The notes: generated from the sequence alone by a model not told the origin. A stretch of DNA of 44,519 nt from a virus (IMGVR_UViG_3300030943_000045:1-44519); one strand, 5' to 3'. Positions 2,545-36,069 are shown, counted from the stretch's first letter. Numbers and translations are program-made.

Positions 2545-2936
2545 TCTCCGCCGCGGAGTTCGCCTACAAACACAATTTCTCGAATGCGGTGCTGGATCCG
2601 GACATAACGGCCGCCATCGCAGCCGTGAATGCACAGTGGGCCGGGGCTCTCGAGTTCTGGTCCACGCTTCCGCAGGCGGCCCGCGACGCGAAGCGGCTGG
2701 TCCTCGAGAATTATCTCGTGGGCTGGCAGCTTGCGACGATGAACCCTGGATCCGTCCGCGGCATCATGGCCAACGGCGGTATGTCAATTTCGTCCAAGAG
2801 CATCTCGGGCGTGTCGATGACCTTTGATCTCGCTCAGGTCGACGACGCGCTCAAGGTGCTCAATTCCAATGTGTTCGGCGCTCAGGCTCTCCAGATGATC
2901 CTGAGCGCGCCGGAGAGGTTCAAGATCTATGGTTGA
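2541..2936 (+). CDS. Head-tail connector adaptor-like protein (DUF4054-type size and position)
   Basis: 131 residues, mostly helical (SAAEFAYKHNFSNAVLDPDI, then helices around VNAQWAGALEFW and LVLENYLVGWQLATM). The layout resembles small adaptor proteins that sit under the portal, such as DUF4054 proteins: an opening F-x-x-x-F/S segment, a regular helical repeat, and a loop ending in a short C-terminal strand. It overlaps the previous gene (ATGA) and the next gene by eight bases. The family name is a guess from length, position and secondary-structure pattern. Confidence 0.5.
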   Translation: MISAAEFAYKHNFSNAVLDPDITAAIAAVNAQWAGALEFWSTLPQAARDAKRLVLENYLVGWQLATMNPGSVRGIMANGGMSISSKSISGVSMTFDLAQVDDALKVLNSNVFGAQALQMILSAPERFKIYG

Positions 2937-3465
2937 CGTGAAAGTCAGCTCGACCAGCCACAAAATCCTTGAGGCTCCGAAGTCGGTGATCATTAAGGTC
3001 GGCATATTGGGCGGGCGGATGCACTTCCCCAAGGCCAGGGGAAAGAAAACCGGAGATCCGATCCCGATGGCGAAGCTCATCGCTTGGCTGGAAGCCGGGT
3101 TTTCATTTCGGATAGAAGGCGGGAAACGAGTAAAAAATGGTGGCAAGAAAGTGACGATTCCACCTCGCCCAATTCTAGTTCCAGGCATCGAGAAAGGCCT
3201 GGATGGGCTCAGGAAGGATTTCAAAAAACTAGCGGCGGCGTTAGCAGAAGGAAAATCGGGTGATACCGAGATCGCCAGGATTGGAATCCGTGCAGTTGGA
3301 TCGATTCAGGAATACGTCGATGAGGACCTTCCTTCGATCGCTCCGAACGCGGAATCGACGATCAAGGTAAAAGGTACCAGCGCCGGCGCCGGTGGCAATA
3401 CCCCGATGATCGACGAGGGGCAGCTCATGGGCGCGATCACCTATTCCTCGGAAAAGAAGGACTAG
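2929..3465 (+). CDS. Tail completion / neck protein (HK97 gp10-like)
   Basis: 178 residues. An early strand reads VIIKVGIL, the middle contains ENG-type linkers and the motif IPPRPIL (~residues 76-82), and the end reads TPMIDEGQLMGAITY. The pattern VGIL ... IPPRP-F/L ... PLIDTG-L-SITY is typical of HK97 gp10-like and Mu-like tail completion proteins that sit at the head-tail joint. The gene overlaps its upstream neighbour by eight bases and is three bases from the next one. Confidence in the family comes from the paired IPPRP and ID-G-L motifs. Confidence 0.65.
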   Translation: MVDVKVSSTSHKILEAPKSVIIKVGILGGRMHFPKARGKKTGDPIPMAKLIAWLEAGFSFRIEGGKRVKNGGKKVTIPPRPILVPGIEKGLDGLRKDFKKLAAALAEGKSGDTEIARIGIRAVGSIQEYVDEDLPSIAPNAESTIKVKGTSAGAGGNTPMIDEGQLMGAITYSSEKKD

Positions 3466-17840: not shown

Positions 17841-17869
17841 TTGACCGGACCGGTTTCTCGGTCCAAAAT
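17841..17869 (+). promoter_or_regulatory. Candidate integrase promoter with inverted repeat
   Basis: TTGACC (17841-17846) and CAAAAT (17864-17869) have a 17-base spacing. The spacer carries the inverted repeat GGACCG-gtttct-CGGTCC (17847-17864). Predicted transcription would begin almost at the integrase ATG (17877), which has no ribosome-binding site, so a leaderless message is possible. Confidence 0.4.
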
Positions 17870-17876
17870 CCTGATC

Positions 17877-19073
17877 ATGCCACGCCCGCGGAAGACGATT
17901 CGAGCCCGAATCCGCCCCTCTGGCCTCTATCAGGTCTCCTTCCCGGAGGACCCTGGACACTGGCATTCGTCTGGACAGGACAACGAGCATGATGCCCTCG
18001 CCTGGGCACGCCGGAAGCGTGGCGAGATCCTGGCGCCTACGCCCATCCTGTTCAAGGACGCGGCCCGAGGCTTCTTCGATGATGATGGATCCTGGGCACG
18101 GCGCCAGGCCGGCCGCGGCCGAACGTTCTCGATCGAATACCTTCCGCAGATGCGCGGGCGCTTGAAGAATTACCTGGTCAAGGAATGGGGCGAAACTCCG
18201 ATCCGACAGATCACCCGCCGGGCCTTCGACGACTGGGTGATAGCTATTCCCAAGATCAAGAATTCCACCAAGAACAAGATCGTCGACGCCGCCCTTATCA
18301 TGTTCCGAGAGTGGACCGACCTGGGCCTTCTCCCTGCCTCGCCGCTTGATGGCCTAACCCACCTTACTCCGTCAGATTTTGAGGCCCGGACGATCTTCAC
18401 CCAGGACGAACTCAAGACCATGTTTCCGACCGACCGTTCCGAACTCGAGCGGATCTGGGTGGATCAGGGAAAGGCCCACCGTGAGCACAGCCAGCTCTGG
18501 ATCTCCTTCTTCATCGCTCTGAAGGATACCGGAGCCCGCCCGGCCGAGCTGCTTGCCCTGAGTTGGGGAGACTGGCGTCCGGAGGAGTGCGGCTTCCCGA
18601 TCCACAAGGCCGCCGAGAACAGGACCGGCCGGATCAAGCCCAGCACGAAAACCGGGAGCCGGAAGCCGGCCTTCCTCTCGGCTCGTGGCGTCCAGGAGCT
18701 GATGCTCTGGGGCGCGGTATCGGAGCACGCGGAGCCGAAGGATTTGATCTGGAGCTTCGACGGACGCCTACCAGTGCACACCGAATCTGCCGCGAAACAT
18801 TTCCGATCTGTCTGCAAGCGCGCGACCATCAATCGCGGGAAGCGCACTCCCTACTGTTTGCGGCATACGTTTGCGACGGCAGCTATCGAAGCGATGCCAC
18901 TGCCGGCTGTTCAAGCTCTCCTCGGGCACTCTGCGAAGTCGATGACGGCTCTCACTTCATATTTCCATCCGACCGACGCGATGATTATGAAGATGGGAGA
19001 AGGTATGAGGGAAATGCTTGAGAAAAGAGTGTGGGGAAAAACCGAACATAAATCAAAAAAGGAGGACAAATAG
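17877..19073 (+). CDS. int: Tyrosine recombinase, phage integrase
   Basis: 398 residues from the ATG at 17877; the longer TTG frame begins inside a probable -35 box. The catalytic domain shows the first Arg in TGARPAELLALSW (~221), a Lys-bearing beta hairpin (STKTGSRKPAFLS), YCLRHTFAT (the usual His of H-x-x-R is Tyr, Arg ~329), LLGHS (~350), and the nucleophile Tyr in TSYFHP (~362). The N-terminal part contains an arm-binding/SAM-like region (RFLIEYL-type helices around 90-160). It catalyses integration and excision at attP/attB, showing a temperate lifestyle. The His-to-Tyr change occurs in other integrases and need not inactivate it. Confidence 0.9.
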   Translation: MPRPRKTIRARIRPSGLYQVSFPEDPGHWHSSGQDNEHDALAWARRKRGEILAPTPILFKDAARGFFDDDGSWARRQAGRGRTFSIEYLPQMRGRLKNYLVKEWGETPIRQITRRAFDDWVIAIPKIKNSTKNKIVDAALIMFREWTDLGLLPASPLDGLTHLTPSDFEARTIFTQDELKTMFPTDRSELERIWVDQGKAHREHSQLWISFFIALKDTGARPAELLALSWGDWRPEECGFPIHKAAENRTGRIKPSTKTGSRKPAFLSARGVQELMLWGAVSEHAEPKDLIWSFDGRLPVHTESAAKHFRSVCKRATINRGKRTPYCLRHTFATAAIEAMPLPAVQALLGHSAKSMTALTSYFHPTDAMIMKMGEGMREMLEKRVWGKTEHKSKKEDK

Positions 19074-19100
19074 ATTTCTTAAGAAAATAAAATATTTGCT

Positions 19101-19829
19101 ACGAAGCTTGTCGTATAAAAGTAGTTAGGCGCAATACTTGATAATTTTTAAAAGGAGAAGCCATGCGTAAACGATATGAAAAAATGTTCTCGAAGGAGTA
19201 TAAATCATTTTTCAAAAACTATAGAATAAGGAAACATAAAAAATATTCTTTAAAGGACTACTTTCGAGATAATCATATTTGCTTTCAATTATGGGGCAAA
19301 ATGAGTTCATGCGATGGTGTTCGCAGTTATGGGTGGGGTCACAAAAAAAACGATCTACTAGTTTGTACTGACGATAATTTCTCTAGAAAAGAAGTTAAAG
19401 CTCTTAAAAGATTTGCGTTTTCTATAAAAAAAGAACTTTTTATATGTTTTTCATGGACTCCAAAAGGTATACCAGAAGTAGTACTTACATTTATAATTGA
19501 AAAATTAACTGAGTTAATTATACAGAAAATGTTTGACTACTTAAAACAAGATTTCAATGAAATATGTGTTGTTAATGAAGAATCAAAACTTAATATTGAT
19601 TTTATAAAAAAAGATAATCAAATTATCCGATTTGAAATAGATTCATTTAAAGAACATGATATCGAATTATTTAAACAGATAATAAATCAAAAACACTCTT
19701 CACAAAAGTTAAAAATATACAATGATAAAGGTATTTATGAAAAAGAACATTCTGTAGGATTACTTGTTAATATCGGATTATAATTACTCTTAATCAAGTA
19801 CTGCGCCTAACACCCGGTACAAGCTTCGT
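19101..19829. mobile_element. Integron-cassette-like AT-rich insertion bounded by inverted repeats
   Basis: The gene at 19163-19783 is bracketed by GTTAGGCGCAATACTTGAT (19124-19142) and its inverse ATCAAGTACTGCGCCTAAC (19793-19811), 18 of 19 matching. Farther out are ACGAAGCTTGT (19101-19111) and ACAAGCTTCGT (19819-19829), also inverted. GTTAGGC and GCCTAAC fit the R' (GTTRRRY) and R'' (RYYYAAC) core sites of integron attC elements. The interior is very AT-rich against the GC-rich phage. No IntI or transposase is present. Confidence 0.55.
19163..19783 (+). CDS. AT-rich cargo gene of unknown function
   Basis: 206 residues, Lys/Phe/Ile-rich, with base composition completely unlike the flanking integrase gene. 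The start has a clear AAAAGGAG ribosome-binding site. The protein has a basic N-terminal third (KSFFKNYRIRKHKKYSLKDY) and a charged alpha/beta remainder (IEKLTELIIQKMFDYLKQDF), without a signal peptide. It is the single gene inside the cassette-like element. Cassette genes of integrons are often orphan proteins with toxin, antitoxin or defence roles, but no motif here supports a choice. Confidence 0.6.
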   Translation: MRKRYEKMFSKEYKSFFKNYRIRKHKKYSLKDYFRDNHICFQLWGKMSSCDGVRSYGWGHKKNDLLVCTDDNFSRKEVKALKRFAFSIKKELFICFSWTPKGIPEVVLTFIIEKLTELIIQKMFDYLKQDFNEICVVNEESKLNIDFIKKDNQIIRFEIDSFKEHDIELFKQIINQKHSSQKLKIYNDKGIYEKEHSVGLLVNIGL

Positions 19830-19972
19830 CGCTCACATGTTCGCTCCTCGGTCCAGATTTTTTTCGAGTACAAAAAAATCTGGACACATTCTGCGCATTT
19901 TCTCAAAAATGCTTCGCATAACATTTTTACAGGCCTTCGGCCGCAGAACGTCGTGTGCCGGAAACGTTGTAC
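19805..19972 (+). repeat. Degenerate attC-like recombination site
   Basis: It begins with GCCTAAC (R'') and CCCGGTACA, and ends with TGTGCCGG and GTTGTAC, which can pair as the imperfect arms of a folded attC. Inside are a 12-bp T/A hairpin (19853-19864 with 19872-19883) and a GGCC-TTC-GGCC turn near 19932. At 168 bases it is long for an attC and its R' departs from GTTRRRY. Confidence 0.4.
19853..19883. terminator. 12-bp hairpin with T/A tracts
   Basis: CCAGATTTTTTT and AAAAAAATCTGG pair perfectly around CGAGTAC. It could terminate transcription in both directions, downstream of the cassette gene at 19163. A third partial copy (AAATCTGGAC) follows at about 19979. Confidence 0.5.
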
Positions 19973-19993
19973 GACATTTAAATCTGGACAATT

Positions 19994-20026
19994 AAGAATG
20001 CACCACCTCTTGTGGCGCATTTTGTC
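19994..20026 (+). terminator. Hairpin with T-run
   Basis: AATGCACCAC and GTGGCGCATT pair with one mismatch around CTCTT, followed by TTTTG. This is a probable factor-independent terminator before the next AT-rich gene. Confidence 0.45.
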
Positions 20027-20119
20027 TATCACTTTTCTTTTTTTGGGTACGTGATTCTTTATATGAAAAATAAATATCTATTTTTTGATTTCACACAATT
20101 AATGCAGTATAATATTTTC

Positions 20120-20587
20120 ATGAAACATTCCTTAATCAAATCTATCATTTGTTTTATTTTATTTTCTGTAATACTTAGTAGCTGCTCAATATTTTATTCC
20201 CATACAATTTCCAATGTATCGGGTTGGGATGTTACAGTTATTGTAGATGGTGTAGAAGCATTTATTCCATCACAAAATGAAGCTTCATTTGAAAATAAAA
20301 ACGGAATAACTTTTTCATTTACAGCATCAAGCATTTATGCAAAAATACGACTAGAGGAATGCAATGGTGATTACTGCTTTTTCGATGACATAGATGGTAT
20401 ATATTCTGGTACTCATGAAGACGCTGTTCATGTTTCATCCTTCACAGTAACAAGTTCTTCAAATACCGGTGGTTCATATAATCCAACTGGGGCATCAGTT
20501 CAATGTAGAGCGTATACCCAAGAAGGTACTCGCTGTAAACGGAAAACAACAAATAAAAATGGATATTGCTGGCAACATCAACCTTAA
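20120..20587 (+). CDS. Lipoprotein with C-terminal Cys/His zinc-like motif
   Basis: 155 residues from ATG 20120; the longer upstream frame has no signal peptide. A basic-hydrophobic N-terminus ends in the lipobox LSSC (Cys ~22), so it should be exported and lipid-anchored. The middle is beta-rich. The C-terminus (CRAYTQEGTRCKRKTTNKNG then YC-QH) gives C-x8-C-x9-C-x2-H, a short motif often appended to bacterial and phage proteins as C-a-TKKG-C-RK...YCWQH. It lies in the AT-rich cargo block and may alter the lysogen surface (lysogenic conversion). The role is inferred. Confidence 0.65.
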   Translation: MKHSLIKSIICFILFSVILSSCSIFYSHTISNVSGWDVTVIVDGVEAFIPSQNEASFENKNGITFSFTASSIYAKIRLEECNGDYCFFDDIDGIYSGTHEDAVHVSSFTVTSSSNTGGSYNPTGASVQCRAYTQEGTRCKRKTTNKNGYCWQHQP

Positions 20588-20742
20588 TTTCCTCAAGACT
20601 AAAAGCGATTTATTCATTCAATCTCAATTAAGTTGTATTTTAGTATTATTTCTATGTACTAGTCATAATATTTTTTAGTAAACATGGGCTCCGCGCGCCA
20701 TCCATGGCTTGCGGCTTCGACGCAGAAAAAACGTCGTACAAG

Positions 20743-20788
20743 ACCCGGTACAGTTCTTCGTCGCTCGTCTTCGGCTCGCTCCTCAGCC
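20743..20788 (+). repeat. Second copy of the attC-like left arm
   Basis: ACCCGGTACA...CTTCGTCGCTC...CGCTCCTC is shared with 19812-19854 at about four-fifths of positions. Upstream, ACGTCGTACAAG resembles the right arm of the first site. It follows the lipoprotein gene, as an attC follows each cassette gene. The core GTTRRRY/RYYYAAC boxes are not intact here. Confidence 0.4.
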
Positions 20789-20801
20789 CTCATCAAAACG
20801 C

Positions 20802-20863
20802 CCTTATCCGCGCCCATAGTATTCGAGAAGTGATGATTCCACTATGCGAGAACATGGATAAGG
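20802..20863. repeat. Imperfect cruciform between convergent cargo genes
   Basis: Outer arms CCTTATCC (20802-20809) and GGATAAGG (20856-20863) and inner arms CATAGT (20815-20820) and ACTATG (20841-20846) nest around a 20-base loop. It separates the rightward lipoprotein from the leftward genes and could act as a terminator or a recombination-site remnant. Confidence 0.45.
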
Positions 20864-20874
20864 CGAGAGAGTAA
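20851..20874. repeat. 24-base direct repeat, copy 1
   Basis: Matches 21410-21433 at 20 of 24 positions. Each copy lies at or just after the 3' end of a leftward exported-protein gene, suggesting that the two genes arrived as similar units or share a downstream element. Confidence 0.55.
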
Positions 20875-20898
20875 TAAATGATCTCCCTTCGTTCTTCT

Positions 20899-21333
20899 CT
20901 ACTTGCTTTCTTCTGTTGAGAATTGAATGCAAACAATGAATCGAACGAACTTATCCGTAGGTAAAGCTGTCGGGGTGTAATCTTTACCAGCATAACCGGC
21001 ACTAGCAGCAGCGATCAAACTAAGTGCCGTAACCGCTCCAGCAGATTTGCTTTTTGTAGTTAGTGAATCTGCATCAGCAGTAACTACTGTCCATGAAGCG
21101 AAAGATCTATTCGCCGCATAAATATTGAAATACTCGGACATTCTCTGCCCGGCCATCGTTGAATTAAATTCCTTATTGGGGAAAACAAATTCAAAGGTTG
21201 TAGTTCCATCTCCATTTTGAATGATACGGTTAGGCGTAGCTTTCGTGTAAATCGATGAAACAGTGTATTCGGGCTCAGTAGCGCAGCTTATGAGGATGAG
21301 AAGGAGACCGATTCCTAAAAGTAATTTCCTCAT
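20899..21333 (-). CDS. Small lipoprotein
   Basis: 144 residues. The N-terminus MRKLLLGIGLLLILISC is a textbook lipoprotein signal (Cys ~17). The mature part is Thr/Ala-rich with beta strands (DGTTTFEFVFPNKEFNSTM) and a hydrophobic Ala/Gly stretch (AVTALSLIAAASAGYAG) that could be a short membrane or packing segment. A leftward GAGGAT ribosome-binding site lies at its start. It sits in the AT-rich cargo block next to another exported protein and is a candidate lysogenic-conversion gene. Family not recognised. Confidence 0.7.
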   Translation of the reverse strand: MRKLLLGIGLLLILISCATEPEYTVSSIYTKATPNRIIQNGDGTTTFEFVFPNKEFNSTMAGQRMSEYFNIYAANRSFASWTVVTADADSLTTKSKSAGAVTALSLIAAASAGYAGKDYTPTALPTDKFVRFIVCIQFSTEESK

Positions 21334-21371
21334 GTTTTATCCTCCATTACTAGTATAGGTTAAAAAAACGT

Positions 21372-21390
21372 ATAGTAAAATGTTTACTAT
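21372..21390. promoter_or_regulatory. Perfect 8-bp inverted repeat upstream of the lipoprotein gene
   Basis: ATAGTAAA-ATG-TTTACTAT lies ~40 bases upstream of the leftward ATG at 21333. It could be an operator or terminator for the gene further upstream. Confidence 0.4.
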
Positions 21391-21409
21391 TGTTTACCTC
21401 CCATAAAGG

Positions 21410-21433
21410 AATATGGAAAAGGCGAGGGAGTAG
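21410..21433. repeat. 24-base direct repeat, copy 2
   Basis: Partner of 20851-20874 (20 of 24 identical). It lies directly after the stop of the leftward gene at 21436. Confidence 0.55.
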
Positions 21434-21435
21434 GG

Positions 21436-21861
21436 CTATTGTACTTGTTGCATCCCTTTGAATTTACTTTCGTTAGTTTCAGCTAGTACTTTATTTATTG
21501 CGTCAAAATAGACTCTCGCATTTTTCTTATCCATTGTTTTCATAAATGGCCCATATCCATTGTATGTAATATAGAAATACCCTGAAAATGCTCCTTCGTT
21601 TTGCAAAAATCCAACTAAGGTCCCGCTCGCCTTTAGCATAGAAAGAGAACCTAATAATGAAATCCCCGCTTGAATATTTCCAGAAACATAATCTTGTACT
21701 AGGAAAACATTATCGTCGAGGATTATTACATGTTGGTATACCTCTCCGATATCATAAAACCCACGAAACTGTTCAAATGGATCAATGGATGGAGAAGGTG
21801 ATTCTTGAGAAAAGCAAATCGAAGAAAAAAGAATGAAAAAGAGGATGAAGCTTTTCTTCAT
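21436..21861 (-). CDS. Exported protein with signal peptide
   Basis: 141 residues from ATG 21861, six bases after GGAG; the frame extends four codons further to 21873 but that start overlaps the ribosome-binding site. The N-terminus MKKSFILFFILFSSICFSQE is a cleavable signal peptide (cut near SQE). The mature domain is beta-rich, with DIGEVYQHVIILDDNVFLVQ and GYFYITYNGYGPFMKTMDKK. It is AT-rich cargo transcribed with the lipoprotein at 20899. Family unknown; a periplasmic or secreted role in the lysogen is an inference. Confidence 0.65.
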   Translation of the reverse strand: MKKSFILFFILFSSICFSQESPSPSIDPFEQFRGFYDIGEVYQHVIILDDNVFLVQDYVSGNIQAGISLLGSLSMLKASGTLVGFLQNEGAFSGYFYITYNGYGPFMKTMDKKNARVYFDAINKVLAETNESKFKGMQQVQ

Positions 21862-21873
21862 ATTACTCTCCAT

Positions 21874-21896
21874 AAACTATATTGCTATTATAGTTT
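21874..21896. promoter_or_regulatory. Inverted repeat between leftward cargo gene and repressor
   Basis: AAACTATA-7-TATAGTTT, followed on the plus strand by a T-run. It could terminate leftward repressor transcription or act as an operator for the exported protein gene. The interval to 21986 holds no gene. A short copy of TATATTGCTAT recurs near 21991. Confidence 0.4.
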
Positions 21897-21986
21897 TTCT
21901 TCGTTCAGAAAACGCGATTATTTTACAGGCCATTTTTCTTCTTTCGCCCCGGTCACGATTGGCCGGAAGATAATTTTCTATATCAA

Positions 21987-22400
21987 TTATATTGCTATCT
22001 GATGGGGCGGACTTTCCAGCGGTTTTTTATCTTCATCGGCCATCCATATTTTTATTGTATCGATCATCTTCTTCCGTCTCGAAGGCTCCATTTGTTGGAA
22101 CAATTCGCATACTAGCAATACATCCTCTCCCACTCCTGGAGGAGGTTCAACTCTCTGCCCTTGTTTTTTTGCCCATTCGAGAAGAAAGTGTTTACCTTTT
22201 TCTTTATCGCAAATCACTTCAACTGGATCGCCAAGGGCATACGCGATCGTTGTTGCATCATGAGAATTTATTATTGACTGCCTATTCTCATTGAACCAAG
22301 CATACACCTTCGATCGAGGTAGTTTGGTCTGTTGAATAAGATCTGCCGTCGTCCAGCCCTTTTGTTTTAGCCGAGAAACGACTCCCCCTAAAAAATCCAT
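21987..22400 (-). CDS. Phage repressor-like XRE-family regulator
   Basis: 137 residues from ATG 22400; in-frame ATGs at 22454 and 22466 would extend into the operator region and lack ribosome-binding sites. The helix-turn-helix is WTTADLIQQTKLPRSKVYAW (~16-35). The remainder is helical and charged, with a Pro-rich hinge (VEPPPGVGEDVLLV). Placed divergently from the early rightward operon, it is the probable lysogeny repressor. It lacks a LexA/CI-like peptidase domain, so induction would work by another route. AT-rich composition links it to the cargo block. Confidence 0.75.
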   Translation of the reverse strand: MDFLGGVVSRLKQKGWTTADLIQQTKLPRSKVYAWFNENRQSIINSHDATTIAYALGDPVEVICDKEKGKHFLLEWAKKQGQRVEPPPGVGEDVLLVCELFQQMEPSRRKKMIDTIKIWMADEDKKPLESPPHQIAI

Positions 22401-25659: not shown

Positions 25660-25731
25660 GGCTGGGTAGAGCAGTGGTAGCTTGCCGGTCTCATACGCCG
25701 GAGGTCAGTGGTTCGAATCCACTCCCAGCCC
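25660..25731 (+). tRNA. tRNA with CAT anticodon (Met, or Ile2 if modified)
   Basis: A complete cloverleaf: acceptor GGCTGGG/CCCAGCC, D arm GAGC/GCTT, anticodon stem CCGGT/GCCGG with loop CTCATAC (CAT at the centre), T arm AGTGG-TTCGAAT-CCACT. CCA is not encoded. A CAT tRNA may be elongator Met or, with lysidine, Ile(AUA). Confidence 0.9.
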
Positions 25732-25997: not shown

Positions 25998-26070
25998 GTG
26001 GGATTAGCTCAGCAGGTAGAGCGTCGGACTTCCACTCCGACTGTCACCGGTTCGATTCCGGTATCCCCCT
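25998..26070 (+). tRNA. tRNA-Gly (TCC anticodon)
   Basis: D arm GCTC/GAGC, anticodon stem TCGGA/TCCGA with loop CTTCCAC (anticodon TCC), T arm ACCGG-TTCGATT-CCGGT, acceptor GTGGGAT/ATCCCCC with one mismatch (position 2), and discriminator T as usual for tRNA-Gly. CCA is not encoded. Confidence 0.85.
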
Positions 26071-26663: not shown

Positions 26664-27430
26664 GCTCGAGGAACATCGTCCGCAATGTCCACGACTCGGA
26701 CACAAAGGAATTCGTCCGCGCTCTCGAATCGCTTTCGAGGACACGGCATCGCTGGGACGCCTTCCGCGACTGGACCGAAATGGCGGCTTGCACGTTCTAC
26801 AACAATCTCTTCCACGATCCGAAGATCGAGGTCGAGTACTTGGCCTGCGCGAATCGGTACAACTCGGACGAGCTCCGAACGATGGGAGAGATGCTCGGCA
26901 TGGTGATCTCCGCCCTCAGTGCGGGTCCGCGCGATTTCATGGGCGAGGTATTTTCCGGATCGCTCCTGATGAATGAGCACCACGGGCAGTTTTTTACACC
27001 TTACACCCTGAGCCTCATGATCGCGAAGATGGCCATCACCGAAGACAACCTTCCTCGCGGAAAGATCATCACGATCTCGGAGCCATCATGCGGAGCTGGT
27101 GGAATGGTCATCGCGGCTGCGGAGGTCATGGCAGAGCTCGGGATCAACTACGCGGCGGATGTCTACTTCGAGGCCCGAGATCTCGATCCGATTTGCGTGC
27201 ACATGGCCTACATCCAGATGACCGCGCTCGGGATCGCCGGGGAAGTCATCTGCGGGAATACCCTCACCCTCGAGACGTCCTGGAAGTGGCCGACGGCCGC
27301 GTACATGCTCAACCTGGTCGGTCCTCGCCTGGCCGCGCAGCGCCAGCGCGAAACCGAGGAGGGGGCCGCTCCTCAGAAGCCGATCAAGATCGGGCCACAG
27401 ATCGGGCTCTTTGAAGAGGTCTCGGCGTGA
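26660..27430 (+). CDS. N6-DNA methyltransferase-fold protein lacking a clear catalytic NPPY
   Basis: 256 residues from the TTG at 26660 overlapping the upstream stop; the longer frame upstream overlaps the transglycosylase and is rejected. It has HHGQFFTPYTLSLMIAKMAI (target/FTP motif), then EPSCGAGGMVIAAAEVMAEL (SAM-binding motif I, GxG type) and FEARDLDPICVHMAYIQMTA (motif II). After GNTLTLE no N/D-P-P-Y/F/W is visible where motif IV should be. It may therefore bind SAM or DNA without methylating. It is coupled by four bases to an SF2 helicase, so a modification or anti-restriction function is possible. Confidence 0.65.
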   Translation: MSSRNIVRNVHDSDTKEFVRALESLSRTRHRWDAFRDWTEMAACTFYNNLFHDPKIEVEYLACANRYNSDELRTMGEMLGMVISALSAGPRDFMGEVFSGSLLMNEHHGQFFTPYTLSLMIAKMAITEDNLPRGKIITISEPSCGAGGMVIAAAEVMAELGINYAADVYFEARDLDPICVHMAYIQMTALGIAGEVICGNTLTLETSWKWPTAAYMLNLVGPRLAAQRQRETEEGAAPQKPIKIGPQIGLFEEVSA

Positions 27431-28983
27431 CCCTCCGTAAGCACCAGGCAGAGACGGCCGCGATCGCTGACCGGATCCACGCCGGCGAGGATATCTCGCG
27501 CATCGACGCTCCTATCACCCCTGGCGGCGGCAAGTCGGCGCTCCCGGGGATCCTAGCTGACCGGCTCTTCCCCGACGTCGCCGACCGCCTCCTTTGGGTC
27601 GTGCCGCGAAACTCCCTGCGCTCCCAGGGGGAGGGCGACTTTCCGACCTGGTCCCGCTACAGGATCCGAGCGGCCGGGAATGAATTCGATCCCTGCCGGG
27701 GGACATCCGGCTACGTCACGACCTACCAGGCGATCGCCGCTGACCCGTATCGCCACCTCGATACCTTCCGCCATGGCCGATGGATCACCGTCCTCGACGA
27801 ACCGCATCACCGCCTCTCCGGAGGGATCTGGGACAAGTCCGTTGTTCCCCTCCTGGACCGCTCGGTCCTCACGGTCTACGCCTCAGGGACCTTTTTCCGA
27901 GGAGATGGGCAGCCGATCGCCGGGATCGAGTACGACGCGGAGGGCATGCCCATCTTCGGGGGGCCGGGAGCGGCCGTCGTCCGGTACTCCCGCGGCGACG
28001 CGCTGCGCGAGGGCGCGATAGTCCCGGTCCACTTCCGGCATCTCGACGGCCGCGCGGAATGGGATGACGAGGACGGAGCCCGGCAGGCATCCGCAAGCTT
28101 CCGCGACGATTACTCCCCGGCCGCGTTGTTCACTGCCCTTCGGACGGAATTCGCCTTTGAGCTCCTGGACGAGACAGTCACGGCCTGGCGCAAGTACAAG
28201 CGCGAGGCCTTCCCCGGGGCGAAGCTAATCGCCGTGGCGCCGAACATCGCCCTGGCTCGGCAGTATCTCGATCACCTTCATCTGCGTCGGATCGACGCTC
28301 TTTTGGCGACCTCGGACGATGACGCGGCCGCACAGATCGCAATCGCTCGCTTCAAGGGACAGGCCGCGCCGGCGGCGGACGTCCTGGTCTGCGTGGGAAT
28401 GTGCTATGAAGGCTTATCGGTCCCGGCCATCACGCATATCGCCTGCCTGACGCACATCCGCTCCGTTCCCTGGCTCGAGCAGCTCTTCGCCCGCGGAAAC
28501 CGCACGGCGCCCGGTAAGGTCGAGGCCTTTGTATTCGGCCCTGAGGACGTGCGCCTACGGGCTGCCATTAGGTCAATCGAAGCCGAGCAGGTCCAAGCCC
28601 TGTCGGAGCTCGAGGCGTCGACGGATTCCTTGCCTATCGAGAACGGGGAGGGCGGATCTGGAGGAAGGAAACCGGGGATCAAGCCGATCGGGTCGGCGGC
28701 GTTCGGGACCGGCAACGCACAGGCAGAATTCCAGGATGAGCCGGCAGCCGCGCTTCCAGATGGCGGCATGACTCCCTCCCAGGCGCAGGCCCTCCTCCGG
28801 ACGCATATCGCCCGACACATCGAGATCTTCCTGGCCGGTAAGCGCCCGGGGTCGAAGGACGCCTACCGGAAAATCGTGATGGCGAAGCTGAAGGCGATCG
28901 TAGGGGGGAAGGCACGGGAGGACTGCACGGTCGAGGAGCTGACCGCGCAGTGGTCCTTCCTCAAGAAGGAATTCCCGGTATGA
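27427..28983 (+). CDS. Superfamily 2 DNA helicase
   Basis: 518 residues, GTG start in a four-base overlap. Motif I is TPGGGKS (31-37), motif II is DEPH in TVLDEPHHR (~124-127), motif III is SGT (~154), and motif VI is QLFARGNRT (~351-359). Helicase lobe 2 begins around KLIAVAPNIALARQYLDH. The C-terminal ~130 residues (after EASTDSLPIENGEG) are a linker and a helical domain. It probably remodels phage DNA in replication or recombination. The partner methyltransferase-fold gene suggests a joint function. The next gene is convergent, ending two bases away. Confidence 0.85.
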   Translation: MTLRKHQAETAAIADRIHAGEDISRIDAPITPGGGKSALPGILADRLFPDVADRLLWVVPRNSLRSQGEGDFPTWSRYRIRAAGNEFDPCRGTSGYVTTYQAIAADPYRHLDTFRHGRWITVLDEPHHRLSGGIWDKSVVPLLDRSVLTVYASGTFFRGDGQPIAGIEYDAEGMPIFGGPGAAVVRYSRGDALREGAIVPVHFRHLDGRAEWDDEDGARQASASFRDDYSPAALFTALRTEFAFELLDETVTAWRKYKREAFPGAKLIAVAPNIALARQYLDHLHLRRIDALLATSDDDAAAQIAIARFKGQAAPAADVLVCVGMCYEGLSVPAITHIACLTHIRSVPWLEQLFARGNRTAPGKVEAFVFGPEDVRLRAAIRSIEAEQVQALSELEASTDSLPIENGEGGSGGRKPGIKPIGSAAFGTGNAQAEFQDEPAAALPDGGMTPSQAQALLRTHIARHIEIFLAGKRPGSKDAYRKIVMAKLKAIVGGKAREDCTVEELTAQWSFLKKEFPV

Positions 28984-29835: not shown

Positions 29836-30861
29836 ATGAACAATGCGATGACTGTCATCGACCAGGCTCGTAAAGAAGGCGCCCTAGTCTACGTTCCACA
29901 GAATCTCGAAACCCCGGATCTCTACAAGCTCGAGTCCTGCGTGATCCAGGTATTGCCGAAGGACTTCCACGATAAGGAAGTGAACGGCCGGCGCCTACCG
30001 CGTAAGGAACTCGTGGACAGGATCGGAGATGCGGCGGGGATATCCTTCATCCCTCAGCCTAATGAATTTTCCATCCAGCAGATGGCCGCAGAACCGGCCC
30101 TGGACCTCCCCGCGCGATCCGTTTTCGTCGGGTCGGCTCAGGGGAAGGTCCGCCTTTCCGACGGATCCTGGAGAACATCGACTGTCGAGGTCTATGCCTT
30201 CGACTACGTAGCGAAGGCGACAGCGGAAGAACCTTCCAATCCGGCGAACCGGAAGCGGAAGATGATCGAGTACTACAAGGCCGGCGCGCAGCGCGCTGCT
30301 ACCGGAGCCAGGCTCCGCGTCATCAAGCAGCTGACGGGCATTCCCAGCGGATTCACTGAGGAGGAGCTCAAGGCCTGCCAGGGGAAGCTCGTTTTCTCTC
30401 GGATCGTCCAGAACACGGACTACGTCCTGAGCACCCCCGAAGGGAAGATGATGGCGATCGCCATGGCAACGGGCGCTGCGCAAATGATGTACGGCAAGCA
30501 GCTCGGAGCGCCGGAGCCGGTCGCCCAGCCTGAGGGCGACGACATCGGCACCGTCTCCTTCCGGCACGCTGAGGATCAGCAGACTGTCCCGGCGGGAAGC
30601 GGCTTCGATTCGGATGATCCGGAGCTCGGAGGAAAGCCATCAACCGAGCCGACCAAGCAGGAACTTTCCGAGGCGCTCTTCCATTCGCTCGAGCAATGGC
30701 TCCTCTCGGACGAGATCACCAAGCGGATGAAGACCGAGATCGAACTCGCGGTTCACAAGAAGGAATCAGATCCGAAGGTCCTCCAGGATCTTCTCGACAA
30801 GGTCATCAAGAACCAGAAGGACCTGGCGGAGTACAAGCGCTCCGGGAAGGTACCAGCATGA
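29836..30861 (+). CDS. Hypothetical DNA-metabolism protein (possible recombination/annealing protein)
   Basis: 341 residues with AAGGAGGG upstream. A central stretch (YYKAGAQRAATGARLRVIKQ, then IPSGFTEEELKACQGKLVFS) resembles the A-R-x-x-R-i/l-x-x-L-GIP-ft-eEL pattern seen in phage single-strand annealing or recombination accessory proteins. Residues ~270-341 are a charged helical C-terminus. It precedes the nuclease fusion gene, consistent with a recombination role. I cannot assign a family. Confidence 0.45.
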   Translation: MNNAMTVIDQARKEGALVYVPQNLETPDLYKLESCVIQVLPKDFHDKEVNGRRLPRKELVDRIGDAAGISFIPQPNEFSIQQMAAEPALDLPARSVFVGSAQGKVRLSDGSWRTSTVEVYAFDYVAKATAEEPSNPANRKRKMIEYYKAGAQRAATGARLRVIKQLTGIPSGFTEEELKACQGKLVFSRIVQNTDYVLSTPEGKMMAIAMATGAAQMMYGKQLGAPEPVAQPEGDDIGTVSFRHAEDQQTVPAGSGFDSDDPELGGKPSTEPTKQELSEALFHSLEQWLLSDEITKRMKTEIELAVHKKESDPKVLQDLLDKVIKNQKDLAEYKRSGKVPA

Positions 30862-31085
30862 AGCGGCGCGACCGACACGCGCGCGAGCTCGCGAGCCGTA
30901 TCTTTTTCGTCCAGGTCAGCCTCGGACGGAGCGGGACGCTCGCTGTCGAAGCCCGCGCGAATAGCAATCACGAGGCATTAAGGCAAGGCCTTTCAAAGGC
31001 CTACGCCGAAGTATCAGCCGAAGCACGAAAAGACGTACACGTTCTCAGCGTGAAGGAGGTAGAGCTTTGCGGATCCTACATCTAG
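30858..31085 (+). CDS. Small hypothetical protein overlapping the nuclease gene
   Basis: 75 residues from the ATG overlapping the previous stop (ATGA). N-terminal basic helix (MKRRDRHARELASRIFFVQV) and a soluble remainder. Its last 19 bases overlap the SbcD-SbcC fusion start, and the ribosome-binding site for that gene is inside this gene. No function assigned. Confidence 0.5.
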   Translation: MKRRDRHARELASRIFFVQVSLGRSGTLAVEARANSNHEALRQGLSKAYAEVSAEARKDVHVLSVKEVELCGSYI

Positions 31086-34000
31086 CCGACCTGCACGAGC
31101 GGGAAAGCGCCTACGAGGAGGCCCTGGCATCGATCGAGGCGATCGAGCGCTATGGCCTCGAAATACCGGTCGACCTCATTGCCCTCGCTGGCGACATCTT
31201 CGACGGTCCGATCCAGAACTCGGATCGCGCGGGATTCGCTCGCCTCATCGACCTGGTCCGGCGCCTTGCCGATATCGCGCCTGTGGCGATGATCTACGGC
31301 ACGCCGACCCACGACACCGAGGGATCGCTCGAGGTCTTCGAGCGGCTCACGGCGAAGCATCAGATCATGATTCTCCGGCCTGGAAAGGCCTATGGCTACT
31401 GCCCTCATGGTCTCTTCGAGCTTCCTCCGAAAGGGCACGGACCTGTCGCGACCTGCCTTCTTTTCGGCGTTCCAGAACCTCAAAAGAAATGGCTCCTCGC
31501 CGGAGCGGGAGCCATAGGGAAGGAAGAATCGGACCAAACGATCCGAAACGCGCTACGGAACCTTTTCCTCGGGCTTGGCGGCATGAGAAAAGAGTATCCG
31601 GATCTCCCCTGCGTTCTACTCTATCACGGTCAGGTTGGCGGCGCCCAGACGGCCAAGGAATTCGTCATCGAGACCGGGACCGGTATCGCGGCCTCGCGCG
31701 ATGACTTCGCGGCCGTCGGAGCTGACTATATCGCCCTGGGCGACATTCACATGCCCCAGCAGATCCCCGGCCTCCCGGCCTACTACCCGGGCCCGCTGTA
31801 CCCGACCTCCTGGGGCGAGACTGGCTTTTCATTCGGCGCCAACATTGTCGAAATCGAGCAGGGCAAGACCACCGTCTCCCGCCTCCCGTTCCCGCATCCC
31901 GTCCAGACCAAGCTCCTGACCACGGCCGTCGATCCCATCCCGGAGATGGTAAGCGGGCGCGTCTGGGTCGAGGTCGTGCCCGAGGCCCAGGAGCAGGAGC
32001 GGCTCCTCGACGCGGACGAGCTCCTGGCCCGGCTCCTCGGCCACGGCGCCCTCCCGGGCTCCCGGGTGACCATCCGCCGTGTCCAGGTCGAAACCGTCCG
32101 GGCCGGTGACATCGTCGAAAAGAAGCGCCACCGCGACAAGGTGGTGGTCTGGGCCGAAAACTCCTCCCTCCCGGTCTCGGAGGGGATCCTCGCGAAAGCC
32201 GACGCGCTCGAACTCGAGGCAGCGGCCGCCGGCGGGGCTCCTTCGGGATCTGCTTTCCGTATCACGCGTCTGATCCTCCGTGGCGCCAAGGGCATCTGGA
32301 AGAAGAGCCGCAAGGACGAGATCGACCTCGACCTCGAGGCCCTGGGCCCGGGCGTCGTTGCGATGGTCGCCCCGAATGGATCCGGCAAGACGACCATCCT
32401 CGAGAACCTCCATCCCTGGCCCTGCCTTCTCACCCGCAAGGGAACCCTCCAGAGCCATTTCCGGCTCCGGGATTCTTGCCGCGAGCTCTACCTGACCGAC
32501 GAGGTTTCGGGCACCAAGTACCGCGTCCGGATTCTGATCAACGCCGCTGTCGCCTCCGGCAAGACCGAGTATTGGATGGACATGGACACCGGAGCCGGCT
32601 ACCATCCCGTCCCCGGAATCACCGGACGGCAGGCCGATTACGAAGCCGTTATCGCCGACCTCTTCGGCTCGCTCCCGCTCTTCCTCAAGTCCGCCTTCCT
32701 GACCCAGCGGCCGAGTTCCGCTAGCCCGGACTTGGCCGAGGCCACCAAGGGCGAGCGGAAGGCCCTCTTCGCCGAGCTCTCGGGCATCGGGTACTTCGAC
32801 GCCTACCGAGCCACAGCGAAGGCCAAGGCCGACGCCCTGGAAGGCGATATCCGCGTCCTGGACGCTACGATCGCGGCCGCCGACGGGCTGGACGAGACCA
32901 TCATCAGCCTCGGCCAGGACATCGAGATCCAGGCCCAGGCGGAAGCCGAGGCGCAGAAGATCCTCACGCAGTCGGCCGAGCGGGGGAAGGTCTTCGCGGC
33001 CGAGAAGGACGCCCTGGAGGCCCGAGTCTCCGAGGTAAATCGGAAAGCCGAGCAGCACAAGAAGATCGAAACCGAGATCGCCAGCCTCATGGACGCGATC
33101 GAGGAGGACCGAGAGACCGAGGCCCTTTTTTCCACCGCCGCGAAAGGGAGAGGCGCGGCCGAGAAGGATCTGGCAGATCTCAAGGAGCTCGAAGCGAAGG
33201 CCCAGACGCTCCGCGGCGAGAAGGCGACCGTCGACCAGGAGAACGTAGCCGCTGCGAAAACCTACCGAGACGCTGTCGCCATCTACGAAGCCGCACGCAA
33301 GGACCGGCAGAAAGCCGTCGACCTGGCGCGGGATACCAAGGCCAAGGCGGAGCGCGAGCTCGCGGCTGCACGGGCGCGCCTGTCGGCGCCCATCGTGGAT
33401 CACTGCCCGACCTGCGGGCAGATCCTTCCCGAAGAGTCGCGGACGGCCCTCCAGGAGGAGCGCCGAAAAAACGAGTCCGAGGTCAAGGCGATCGAGGATC
33501 GGATCGAGAAGCTGTCCCAGGGCGTCCAGGCGGCCGAGAATGTCCTGGCCGAGATCCAGGCGCCGGAGAGCGCCGAGCCGGCGCCCTTCCCCGGAGCGGC
33601 CGAACTCGCGGAGGTCGAGGCCGACATCGCCATGATCGACGCCGCGGCCGCGCAGGAGATCCTCCGGAAGGCCGGCGAGGCGGAGATCCGCATCGAGGAG
33701 GCGGCCCGGCGCATCAAGGACAAGGAAACCCAGATCGACACGGCGACGGTCGAACTCAAGGACACGACCCTCACGATCGCGGATGCCGAGGTCGCCTCGC
33801 TTTTGGAATCCAAGAAGCAGGAGTACGAGGCCGAGCGCGAGGTCTACGGCGACGCCCGGGATGCGATCGCCCGCGCTCAGACCGCCGCGGAGGCCGCGAA
33901 GAAGGCGAAGACCGCAGCCGAGGAGCGGAAGGCCAGCCTGGCGACGACCGAAAAGCAGCGCGCCGAAAAGGCTTCGGACCTGGAGGAGTGGCGCTTCCTC

Positions 34001-34525
34001 GAGCGCGCGGACGGCCCCGATGGAATCCCGGCGCTCGAGCTCGATGCCCTCGCGCCTTCCATCCAGGACGTCGCGAACAGAATCTTGGCTGAGGCCTACG
34101 GTTCCCGCTACCAGATCGCTATCCGGACTCAGCGCATCGCCGGCCAAGGATCGAAAAAGAAGCAGGTCGAGGACTTCGAGATCTTCATCCAGGATACCGA
34201 GGACGGCGACGAGCAGGAGATCGCGACCCTGTCCGGCGGCGAGGCCGTTTGGGTCAAGAAGGCCCTCTACGACGCCTTCTCGGTCATCCGGGCGCGCAAC
34301 ACGGGCTTGCGTTTCCAGACCGTTTTCCTGGACGAAGCGGACGGGGCTTTGGATCCGGACAATCGCATGACCTACCTCAGGATGCTCGAGGCCGCCCACC
34401 GCGAGGCCGCGCGCTTCCAAACCATCCTCGTCACCCACTCGCTCGAGCTCCAGGCGATGGTCGCGCAGACGATCAACGTCAAGGACCTCGGGCCGCGAAA
34501 AATCATTGAAGGAGTAGCAGCATGA
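31067..34525 (+). CDS. SbcD-SbcC (Mre11-Rad50) fusion: nuclease plus SMC-type ATPase in one chain
   Basis: 1152 residues from TTG 31067, seven bases after AAGGAGG (31053-31059). Residues ~1-395 are a metallophosphoesterase: DLH (8-10), GDIFD (42-46), GTPTHD (78-83) in place of GNHD, LYHGQ (~187), and LGDIH (~225-228) in place of GHxH. Residues ~400-1152 are a Rad50/SbcC ATPase: Walker A APNGSGKTT (~435-443), coiled coils with the zinc hook CPTCG (~780), signature LSGGE (~1055), Walker B VFLDEADGALD (~1085). SbcCD normally uses two subunits to process DNA ends and hairpins; a single chain is unusual. The two metal-site substitutions may alter activity. Overlaps parB by four bases. Confidence 0.9.
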   Translation: MRILHLADLHERESAYEEALASIEAIERYGLEIPVDLIALAGDIFDGPIQNSDRAGFARLIDLVRRLADIAPVAMIYGTPTHDTEGSLEVFERLTAKHQIMILRPGKAYGYCPHGLFELPPKGHGPVATCLLFGVPEPQKKWLLAGAGAIGKEESDQTIRNALRNLFLGLGGMRKEYPDLPCVLLYHGQVGGAQTAKEFVIETGTGIAASRDDFAAVGADYIALGDIHMPQQIPGLPAYYPGPLYPTSWGETGFSFGANIVEIEQGKTTVSRLPFPHPVQTKLLTTAVDPIPEMVSGRVWVEVVPEAQEQERLLDADELLARLLGHGALPGSRVTIRRVQVETVRAGDIVEKKRHRDKVVVWAENSSLPVSEGILAKADALELEAAAAGGAPSGSAFRITRLILRGAKGIWKKSRKDEIDLDLEALGPGVVAMVAPNGSGKTTILENLHPWPCLLTRKGTLQSHFRLRDSCRELYLTDEVSGTKYRVRILINAAVASGKTEYWMDMDTGAGYHPVPGITGRQADYEAVIADLFGSLPLFLKSAFLTQRPSSASPDLAEATKGERKALFAELSGIGYFDAYRATAKAKADALEGDIRVLDATIAAADGLDETIISLGQDIEIQAQAEAEAQKILTQSAERGKVFAAEKDALEARVSEVNRKAEQHKKIETEIASLMDAIEEDRETEALFSTAAKGRGAAEKDLADLKELEAKAQTLRGEKATVDQENVAAAKTYRDAVAIYEAARKDRQKAVDLARDTKAKAERELAAARARLSAPIVDHCPTCGQILPEESRTALQEERRKNESEVKAIEDRIEKLSQGVQAAENVLAEIQAPESAEPAPFPGAAELAEVEADIAMIDAAAAQEILRKAGEAEIRIEEAARRIKDKETQIDTATVELKDTTLTIADAEVASLLESKKQEYEAEREVYGDARDAIARAQTAAEAAKKAKTAAEERKASLATTEKQRAEKASDLEEWRFLERADGPDGIPALELDALAPSIQDVANRILAEAYGSRYQIAIRTQRIAGQGSKKKQVEDFEIFIQDTEDGDEQEIATLSGGEAVWVKKALYDAFSVIRARNTGLRFQTVFLDEADGALDPDNRMTYLRMLEAAHREAARFQTILVTHSLELQAMVAQTINVKDLGPRKIIEGVAA

Positions 34526-36069
34526 ACGAAACCATCCAGCAGATCCCCTTGGACCAGCTCACCCCGTGCCCGACCAACCGCCGAATCGGTGGCTTCGACA
34601 AGATCAAGCTCGCGCAGCTCGCCGAGTCGATCAAGTCAGTCGGAGTTCAGCAGCCGGCCGTCGTGCGTAAGGTCGAAGAGAAGGAGTTCGAGATCGTATC
34701 CGGGGAGCGGCGCTGGCGCGCCTCGGAGCTGGTCAAGATGGCATCGCTCCCGTGCGTGGTGCGCGAGCTGACCGACGAGCAGGTCATCAAGATCCGAGCG
34801 ATCGAGAACCTCCAGCGCGAGGACGTCCATCCCCTGGACGAGGCTGACAGTTACCAGCAGCTCCTGGACGTCTGCGGCTACGAGGTCGAGACGATCGCTG
34901 GCGAGCTCGGGAAATCCATCTCCTACGTCTACCAGCGGCTCAAGCTCCAGGACCTGGTCCCCAAGGCTCGCGAGTACCTCGTCGAGGGAATGATCACCGT
35001 CGGCCACGCCATCCTTATCGCGCGCCTGGAGCCGGCCCGGCAGGCTGAGGTCCTGAAGGACGGGCTCCGACAGTACGGGAACGAGATCGTGTCGGTCCGC
35101 GCCCTGGACGATTTTATCCGCCGGAACATCCTGCTGCAGCTCTCGAGCGCGACCTGGAAGCTCGCTGACGATCAGCTCCTTCCCGAGGCTGGGGCCTGCT
35201 CCAAGTGCCCGAAACGCACCGGAGTCGCGCCCGCGCTCTTTGAGGACATCGGGAAGAAGGACAACTGCCTCGATCGCGCTTGCTTCATCAAAAAGGCCAA
35301 GGCGAGCGTGGCGGCAAAGCGGAAGGAGCTCGAGGACGAGCCTCACCTCGAGGTGCGCGGAACCTACCGGGGCCCCGAGGTAGAAGGAGCTCTCGACGCT
35401 GACGATTGGCGCGAGTGCAAGAAGAGCGATCCGGGGGCGGTGAAGGTCCTCATCGTCGATGGCGACAACGCCGGCAAGCTCACCTACGGGAAGACCATGG
35501 GAAAGACCGCCGAGGCGAAGGCCGCGGCCCTGAATCCGAAGGTCCTGGCGAAGGAGAAGGCCGAGCGCGCGAAGGAGAAGAAGATCAAGAATGCGCGCGA
35601 GAGCCTCCTTCTGGAGATCTACCAGACGATCTACGAGGCGGCCGTGACGAAGCTTCCGTCCAAGAAAGAGAATGACGTCGTCGTCGGCCTCAGGCGCATG
35701 ATCGCATTCAAGACCTGGTCGAATCTCACCTTCGACATCCAGAACTTCATTGCGAAGCTCTTGGATTGGCCGAAGCCGGAAAAAAAAGAAAACACCGCCT
35801 CGATTTCCTGGGAACCATTCGCGAAAAAATCCATCGTGTCGATGGGTTCGGGCTCGCTGGAAAACTTCCTCATCGTCTGCACTTTCGCCGGAGCCGCTCG
35901 GATTCTGCCGAACGACTACTACCGGATCCCGAAGTTGTTCATCGAGGCCGCGAAGCTCTTAGGCATCGACATCGAGCTCATCATCACGGAGAAGCTCGAG
36001 ACCGAGGGGCTCAAGAGGAAGGAGCTGCTCGAGCCGATCCCGAAGTACTTGGAGGACGGCGAGGAATGA
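34522..36069 (+). CDS. parB: ParB/RepB/Spo0J-family DNA-binding protein
   Basis: 515 residues. The ParB N domain has ESIKSVGVQQPAVVR, GERRWRA (61-67) and ENLQRED (95-101), followed by a helix-turn-helix region (VETIAGELGKSISYVYQRLK). A long C-terminal part has a cysteine cluster (ACSKCPKRTGVAPALFEDIG then DNCLDRACF), Lys/Ala-rich helices and a terminal domain. No parA is present, so partitioning is unlikely alone. Phage ParB-like proteins without ParA can act as nucleases or replication/expression regulators. The CTP-binding GERR motif is intact. Confidence 0.8.
   Translation: MNETIQQIPLDQLTPCPTNRRIGGFDKIKLAQLAESIKSVGVQQPAVVRKVEEKEFEIVSGERRWRASELVKMASLPCVVRELTDEQVIKIRAIENLQREDVHPLDEADSYQQLLDVCGYEVETIAGELGKSISYVYQRLKLQDLVPKAREYLVEGMITVGHAILIARLEPARQAEVLKDGLRQYGNEIVSVRALDDFIRRNILLQLSSATWKLADDQLLPEAGACSKCPKRTGVAPALFEDIGKKDNCLDRACFIKKAKASVAAKRKELEDEPHLEVRGTYRGPEVEGALDADDWRECKKSDPGAVKVLIVDGDNAGKLTYGKTMGKTAEAKAAALNPKVLAKEKAERAKEKKIKNARESLLLEIYQTIYEAAVTKLPSKKENDVVVGLRRMIAFKTWSNLTFDIQNFIAKLLDWPKPEKKENTASISWEPFAKKSIVSMGSGSLENFLIVCTFAGAARILPNDYYRIPKLFIEAAKLLGIDIELIITEKLETEGLKRKELLEPIPKYLEDGEE

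Follow-up and report, generated by a model that had tools for sequence, protein, structure and literature searches.

What does a phage gain from joining an Mre11-type nuclease and a Rad50-type ATPase in a single polypeptide, and does the joined protein still work as the enzyme that its parts suggest? This question is raised by IMGVR_UViG_3300030943_000045:1-44519, a viral stretch of 44,519 nucleotides (the window), in which one plus-strand reading frame at 31067-34525 encodes both proteins (SbcD and SbcC in bacterial terms) in 1152 codons. We favor, with a probability of about 0.72, the reading that the product is a working single-chain Mre11-Rad50 (SbcDC) that forms a phage recombination module together with a Rad52/Erf-type annealing protein encoded upstream.

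A complete Mre11-Rad50 enzyme in one frame

The fused gene begins with TTG, preceded at a distance of six bases by a strong Shine-Dalgarno sequence, AAGGAGGT (31053-31060, plus strand), runs without an internal stop, and ends in an ATGA (at 34522) in which its stop codon and the ATG start of the following gene overlap. GC content at third codon positions is high in all 300-base blocks of the frame (0.60-0.93), and since it is of the coding type over the full length, it gives no sign of a frameshift. The recurrence of the fusion in many relatives (below) speaks against a stop or frameshift near codon 395, which the original prediction had named as its refutation.

Domain searches agreed with the prediction for both halves. 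In the N-terminal half, Pfam Metallophos (calcineurin-like phosphoesterase) matched residues 1-78 above its cut-off and NCBIfam sbcd matched residues 1-253 with an E-value of 4e-10, below its curated cut-off. The C-terminal half matched the PHROG family phrog_77 (SbcC) over residues 397-1139 (E 1.6e-47) and Pfam SbcC_Walker_B over residues 1037-1108 at the cut-off, with AAA_23 and SMC_N below theirs. A profile built from 30 relatives matched Thermotoga maritima Mre11 (E 9e-21) and E. coli SbcD/SbcC in the PDB. The AlphaFold2 (AF2) model of the chain (pLDDT 82, pTM 0.52) resembles SbcD/Mre11 in the first ~390 residues and Rad50/SMC in the remainder; its N-terminal half matched E. coli SbcD (7yzo_A, E 2e-12) and T. 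maritima Mre11 (3thn, TMt 0.70), and the best overall match was chain C of 7zr1, a fungal Mre11-Rad50-Nbs1 complex (E 5e-17). By fold and homology, the nuclease half is clearly Mre11.

Sequence, fold prediction, and conservation together show a complete set of parts, all on the plus strand. The nuclease core spans about residues 1-265 (31067-31861) and contains DLH (residues 8-10), GD (42-43), and YHG (186-188). Of the Mre11 motifs, DxH, GD, H187, and H228 are present; the canonical GNHD of motif III reads GTPTHD (residues 78-83, 31298-31315) and the GHxH of motif V reads GDIH (residues 225-228, 31739-31750), as the prediction had it, with codon 226 being GAC (Asp) where most relatives have His. 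A capping region at about residues 266-345 (31862-32101), delimited by the AF2 secondary structure and the PDB alignments, is followed by a helical segment at residues 347-387 (32105-32227), the equivalent of the Mre11 helix-loop-helix, with modeled helices at 347-351, 355-366, and 372-387. By analogy with the T. maritima Mre11-Rad50 complex (PMC3175470), these helices would bind the Rad50 coil. The AF2 model and the junction alignment place a linker of about seven residues at about 388-394 (32228-32248), and the first Rad50 strand begins at residue 395. The Rad50/SbcC ATPase set is fully represented by the Walker A region PNGSGKTT (residues 436-443, 32372-32395), the coiled coil with a CPTC zinc hook at its apex (residues 780-783, 33404-33415), the ABC signature SGGE (residues 1056-1059, 34232-34243), and the Walker B/D-loop VFLDEADGALD (residues 1086-1096, 34322-34354). 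D8, H10, D43, H82, H187, H228, both hook cysteines, S1056, and D1089/E1090 are invariant in 30 aligned members, and this invariance of metal-site, hook, and ATPase residues argues that the enzyme is under constraint.

Relatives and the rebuilt metal site

Relatives came from searches of viral contigs, made first with the protein itself and later with profiles, and a second genome scan added 21 loci. A tblastn search of the window protein against named phages gave only partial C-terminal matches, and a genome scan with a three-sequence profile gave no matches; a 30-sequence profile then recovered spirochaete and other metagenome-assembled genomes (MAGs). After removal of near-identical rows, the alignment held 77 rows, of which 55 are fused (the window included) and 22 are split, the latter comprising 18 environmental or genome loci together with Leptospira phage LE1, E. 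coli, a Moorella phage, and Bacillus phage Eldridge. One apparent fusion, MT837584.1, matched both halves and was rejected because it carries two canonical separate genes.

More than 50 independent contigs, one of them an 843-kb MAG contig (L047), encode nuclease and ATPase in a shared frame, and the junction is conserved, passing from the Mre11 C-terminal helices through a short linker to the first Rad50 strand. The fused sequences come mostly from viral contigs and spirochaete MAGs. Those from the genome collection lie mainly in MAGs titled Treponema, Spirochaetales, and Spirochaetaceae, besides one Elusimicrobia bin and Candidatus Aegiribacteria, hosts being taken here from MAG titles and the contigs being possibly misbinned phage. 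Split relatives with the same GT motif occur in Desulfobacterota, one of them in the isolate Desulfospira joergensenii (L060). In this isolate, LE1, and three further split loci (L030, L039, L112), the nuclease and ATPase frames abut or overlap, an arrangement that is probably the natural precursor, fusion having made permanent a pairing of subunits whose genes already overlapped.

In a quick maximum-likelihood tree with long branches, from which we rely only on the broad division between the main fused clade and L101, 54 of the 55 fused rows fall on one branch (SH-aLRT 96) and the remaining one, L101, groups with the split L112. The fused/split label thus needs two changes on this tree, which would mean either two fusions or one fusion and a later splitting. 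E. coli, Eldridge, and the Moorella phage fall outside the fused clade in the same tree, whose sampling comprises no archaeal or eukaryotic Mre11-Rad50.

The original prediction had asked whether the two substitutions are conserved in fused homologues, and the answer differs between them. Motif III is GNHD in E. coli, LE1, the Moorella phage, Eldridge, and L118; it is GNESHD, GNEAHD, or GNAEHD in L115, L103, and L119, all of them split; and in the remaining rows, split and fused alike, it is GTPSHD, GTPTHD, or a close variant, position 79 being Thr in 54 of the 55 fused members and Ser in one. GTxxHD is therefore conserved among the fusions, yet it is common to split relatives, and the alignment marks GT[x][S/T]HD as a trait of a wider phage and plasmid clade with unfused members and not as a product of fusion. 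Since the intermediates keep Asn directly after Gly, the metal-binding Asn has likely been replaced by Thr79, with a two-residue insert between this ligand and the catalytic His. An HMMER alignment had offered Thr81 as the replacement, a candidate we dropped because position 81 varies (S/T/A/G) and position 79 hardly does, and because of the same intermediates. The Asn rows occupy more than one place on the tree (three changes). The change in motif V is of narrower distribution, GDxH being confined to fused rows (17 of 55) and absent from all 22 split ones; it requires at least six changes on the quick tree and four on a smaller, more careful tree of 33 rows.

Taken together, the rows outline an apparent stepwise rebuilding of the metal site, from GNHD through GNxxHD to GTPxHD and, in some members, GDxH, and with such a series the part played by each ligand could be tested directly by residue swaps. 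The Asp that takes the place of His in motif V is itself a potential metal ligand. Because the changes are conserved or recurrent, and the other ligands and the catalytic His are intact, we expect from the alignment that the altered motifs tune the metal preference without abolishing the activity.

Three individual relatives deserve separate mention. The divergent fused member L037/L123 sits on a very long branch and has degraded ATPase motifs (APGGMGKS, LSGEER, DDEPDAHV); a search of this locus for the partner gene described below found none, and the protein is possibly a non-ATPase derivative. At L043:2881-6372, in a Spirochaetaceae MAG, tblastn covers the whole fusion, yet the frame is broken, by either pseudogene formation or sequence errors. 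In L021 (IMGVR_UViG_3300038425_000062), an HNH endonuclease gene (2819-3308, Pfam HNH E 1.4e-5) lies inside the fused gene between the nuclease core and the cap, replacing ~70 bases of the relative L029 and dividing SbcDC into two separately startable genes.

A conserved partner and the competing explanations

A gene for a protein of 341 residues (29836-30861, plus strand; phrog_13782), conserved in this position, lies upstream of the fusion, separated from it in the window by a short open frame. Clustering of neighboring frames in the first set placed this family immediately before the fusion in 30 loci. In the full set, the upstream position is occupied by a homologue in 54 of the 55 fused and 13 of the 18 split loci, and in 41 loci this gene touches or overlaps the start of the nuclease. 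The partner has no match in Pfam or NCBIfam and no sequence match in the PDB, and most members of the family match only phrog_13782 in PHROGs, a family of unknown function. Its AF2 model (pLDDT 82) has human RAD52 as all of its top five PDB fold matches (E 0.004-0.03, probability 0.93 for the first), and among its better matches in BFVD, a library of viral structures, are a named DNA single-strand annealing protein, a RAD52-like recombinase, and several Erf proteins (E 0.004-0.06). Both structure libraries point the same way, to RAD52/Erf as the nearest fold, with weak scores, and we treat the partner as a candidate Rad52/Erf-type single-strand annealing protein. For the split loci L030 and L039, PHROG labels the upstream gene 'exonuclease', and no annealing protein could be made out behind this label. 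Published work places phage annealing proteins next to SSB and nuclease genes and, on occasion, sbcC (PMC8093625), and among the recurrent neighbors in the first set are SSB genes (14 loci), ResIII-type helicases (19), and ParB-type genes (9); we read the SSB genes and helicases as completing a recombination module. In the window, the ResIII-type DNA helicase (27427-28983, plus strand; phrog_16) is encoded upstream, as in many relatives.

From these parts, we propose that a dimer of the chain, joined at the ATPase heads and at the zinc hooks, forms the usual M2R2 machine with a fixed 1:1 stoichiometry, in which ATP binding and hydrolysis would open and close access to the two-metal nuclease site. 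The enzyme would resect the ends of the phage DNA and thereby expose 3' single strands, as T4 gp46/gp47 perform end resection in recombination-dependent replication (PMC3175470). With moderate confidence, we suggest that the partner would load on this single strand as a Rad52/Erf-type annealing protein and that the module would serve recombination-dependent replication, concatemer formation, or genome circularization.

Several points weigh against this reading. Both altered residues are among the metal ligands, and nuclease activity may be reduced or lost. The AF2 model is of a single chain without metals or a dimer, its pTM is 0.52, and coil domains inflate matches to SMC-like proteins. The fold matches of the partner are weak (best E 0.004 in the PDB and 6.5e-4 in BFVD, with low TM-scores), and no sequence profile ties it to a known annealing family. 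If the substitutions at the metal site (Asn to Thr, His to Asp) had left the nuclease weak or dead, the fusion could be a structural machine that tethers DNA ends, bridging them or aiding packaging or segregation with the ParB-type protein whose gene overlaps the fusion stop, and the poorly conserved ATPase motifs of L037/L123 would fit such a role. We consider this unlikely, as the 30 aligned members show no variation in the remaining metal ligands or in the catalytic His82, the substitutions are conservative (Thr or Ser at position 79, and an Asp that can ligate metal) and the Asp recurs, and the partner resembles an annealing protein more than a segregation factor.

Still less probable, to a degree that we give it little weight, is a nuclease for counter-defense or host takeover, directed for example against host DNA or blocked replication forks. 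SMC/Rad50-like ATPases are known in defense systems, and PADLOC matched Lamassu LmuB and MADS weakly and in part, but these matches cover only the ATPase and coil regions and were judged to be generic similarity, and the neighborhood is a recombination/replication module conserved over many phages. The original prediction had suggested hairpin processing or counter-defense as the specialized role; we saw no support for either, and the gene neighborhood favors recombination. An assembly artifact, or accidental read-through from one gene into an overlapping second, might be suspected from LE1 and L030/L104, which carry both genes in overlapping frames; the independent contigs with a conserved junction have already refuted this explanation, leaving it a negligible chance. 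The single-chain recombination enzyme with its candidate annealing partner accounts best for the conserved residues and the neighborhood. A broader proposal, that a large, mainly spirochaete-associated phage clade possesses a two-gene system made of the fusion with a rebuilt second metal site and a new Rad52/Erf-like annealer family, is more tentative, and we would put it slightly short of even odds. If true, the two-gene system would be an ATP-driven counterpart of RecE/RecT.

Known systems and the rest of the window

The original prediction contrasted the single chain with the usual architecture of separate subunits; as a kind of protein, such Mre11/Rad50 fusions are not new. Yoshida, Claverie and Ogata described them in 2011 from Mimivirus and a Bacillus phage as well as from bacteria, plasmids, and eukaryotes, and argued for a viral origin without monophyly (PMC3175470). 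These fusion proteins (Mimivirus R555, and those of a Clostridium kluyveri plasmid, a Deferribacter megaplasmid, and Bacillus phage 0305phi8-36; PMC3175470) have the same order of Mre11 then Rad50, and share with the window fusion the retained helix-loop-helix, the short linker, and the viral and plasmid distribution. R555 carries Asp at the position of His206, the leading His of GHxH (PMC3175470), as in the GDIH of the window; by its published description, it keeps a GNHD/E-type motif III region save for one changed Asp, whereas the proteins described here have GT[x][S/T]HD with its two-residue insertion. The chain is also shorter here (1152 residues versus 1351), and the conserved upstream partner is a feature of the present clade. 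The fusion and GDxH were therefore already known, and the clade with a GT-type motif III and a constant partner appears to be the new part. The open-access papers searched gave no description of the partner family or of the GT-type motif III, the motif string itself not having been searched for; of the two genes, the partner may be the more novel.

With E. coli SbcCD and T4 gp46/gp47, the fusion shares every domain and almost every catalytic motif, but these two are each encoded by a pair of genes; E. coli has GNHD and GHxH and no Rad52-like neighbor. The same module is seen in LE1, in which gp75 (metallophosphoesterase) and gp74 (SMC ATPase) are accompanied by a weak partner homologue, a ParB gene, and a DEAD helicase, but the two genes are separate and overlapping and the nuclease has the canonical GNHD. 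Burkholderiales megaplasmids (L132, which is Polaromonas pPNAP01, and L133 among them) carry GTFSHE in the two examined, a motif III of the type GT[x]SH[D/E] as in the window, with helicase and SSB genes near the Polaromonas pair; their SbcD and SbcC are separate and no partner homologue was detected among the neighbors tested. By sequence, they are a plasmid branch of the same nuclease clade. RecE/RecT and lambda Exo/Beta likewise set an exonuclease beside a single-strand annealing protein (a candidate one here), but their exonucleases are unrelated and ATP-independent, whereas the present one is an ATP-driven Mre11-Rad50. A one-chain Mre11-Rad50 fixes the ratio and register of the subunits and could make this machine, which is difficult to reconstitute, easier to study structurally and at the single-molecule level. 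The candidate annealing family, if confirmed, would provide a recombination pair of possible recombineering use in spirochaetes, where such tools are scarce.

The gene that overlaps the fusion stop (34522-36069, plus strand) encodes a ParB-family protein (Pfam ParB_N, 3.7e-24). Its best-scoring model is that of the PRTRC-plasmid ParB (E 2.5e-45, below the model cut-off), which outscores the phage ParB families of PHROGs. Elsewhere in the window, GC content drops from ~0.6 to 0.37 at 18000-22000, just downstream of a tyrosine integrase gene (17841-19073); this stretch is likely recently acquired cargo, and an open reading frame within it (19163-19783) matched no known family. The window also carries tRNA genes for Met(cat) at 25660-25731 and Gly(tcc) at 25998-26070.

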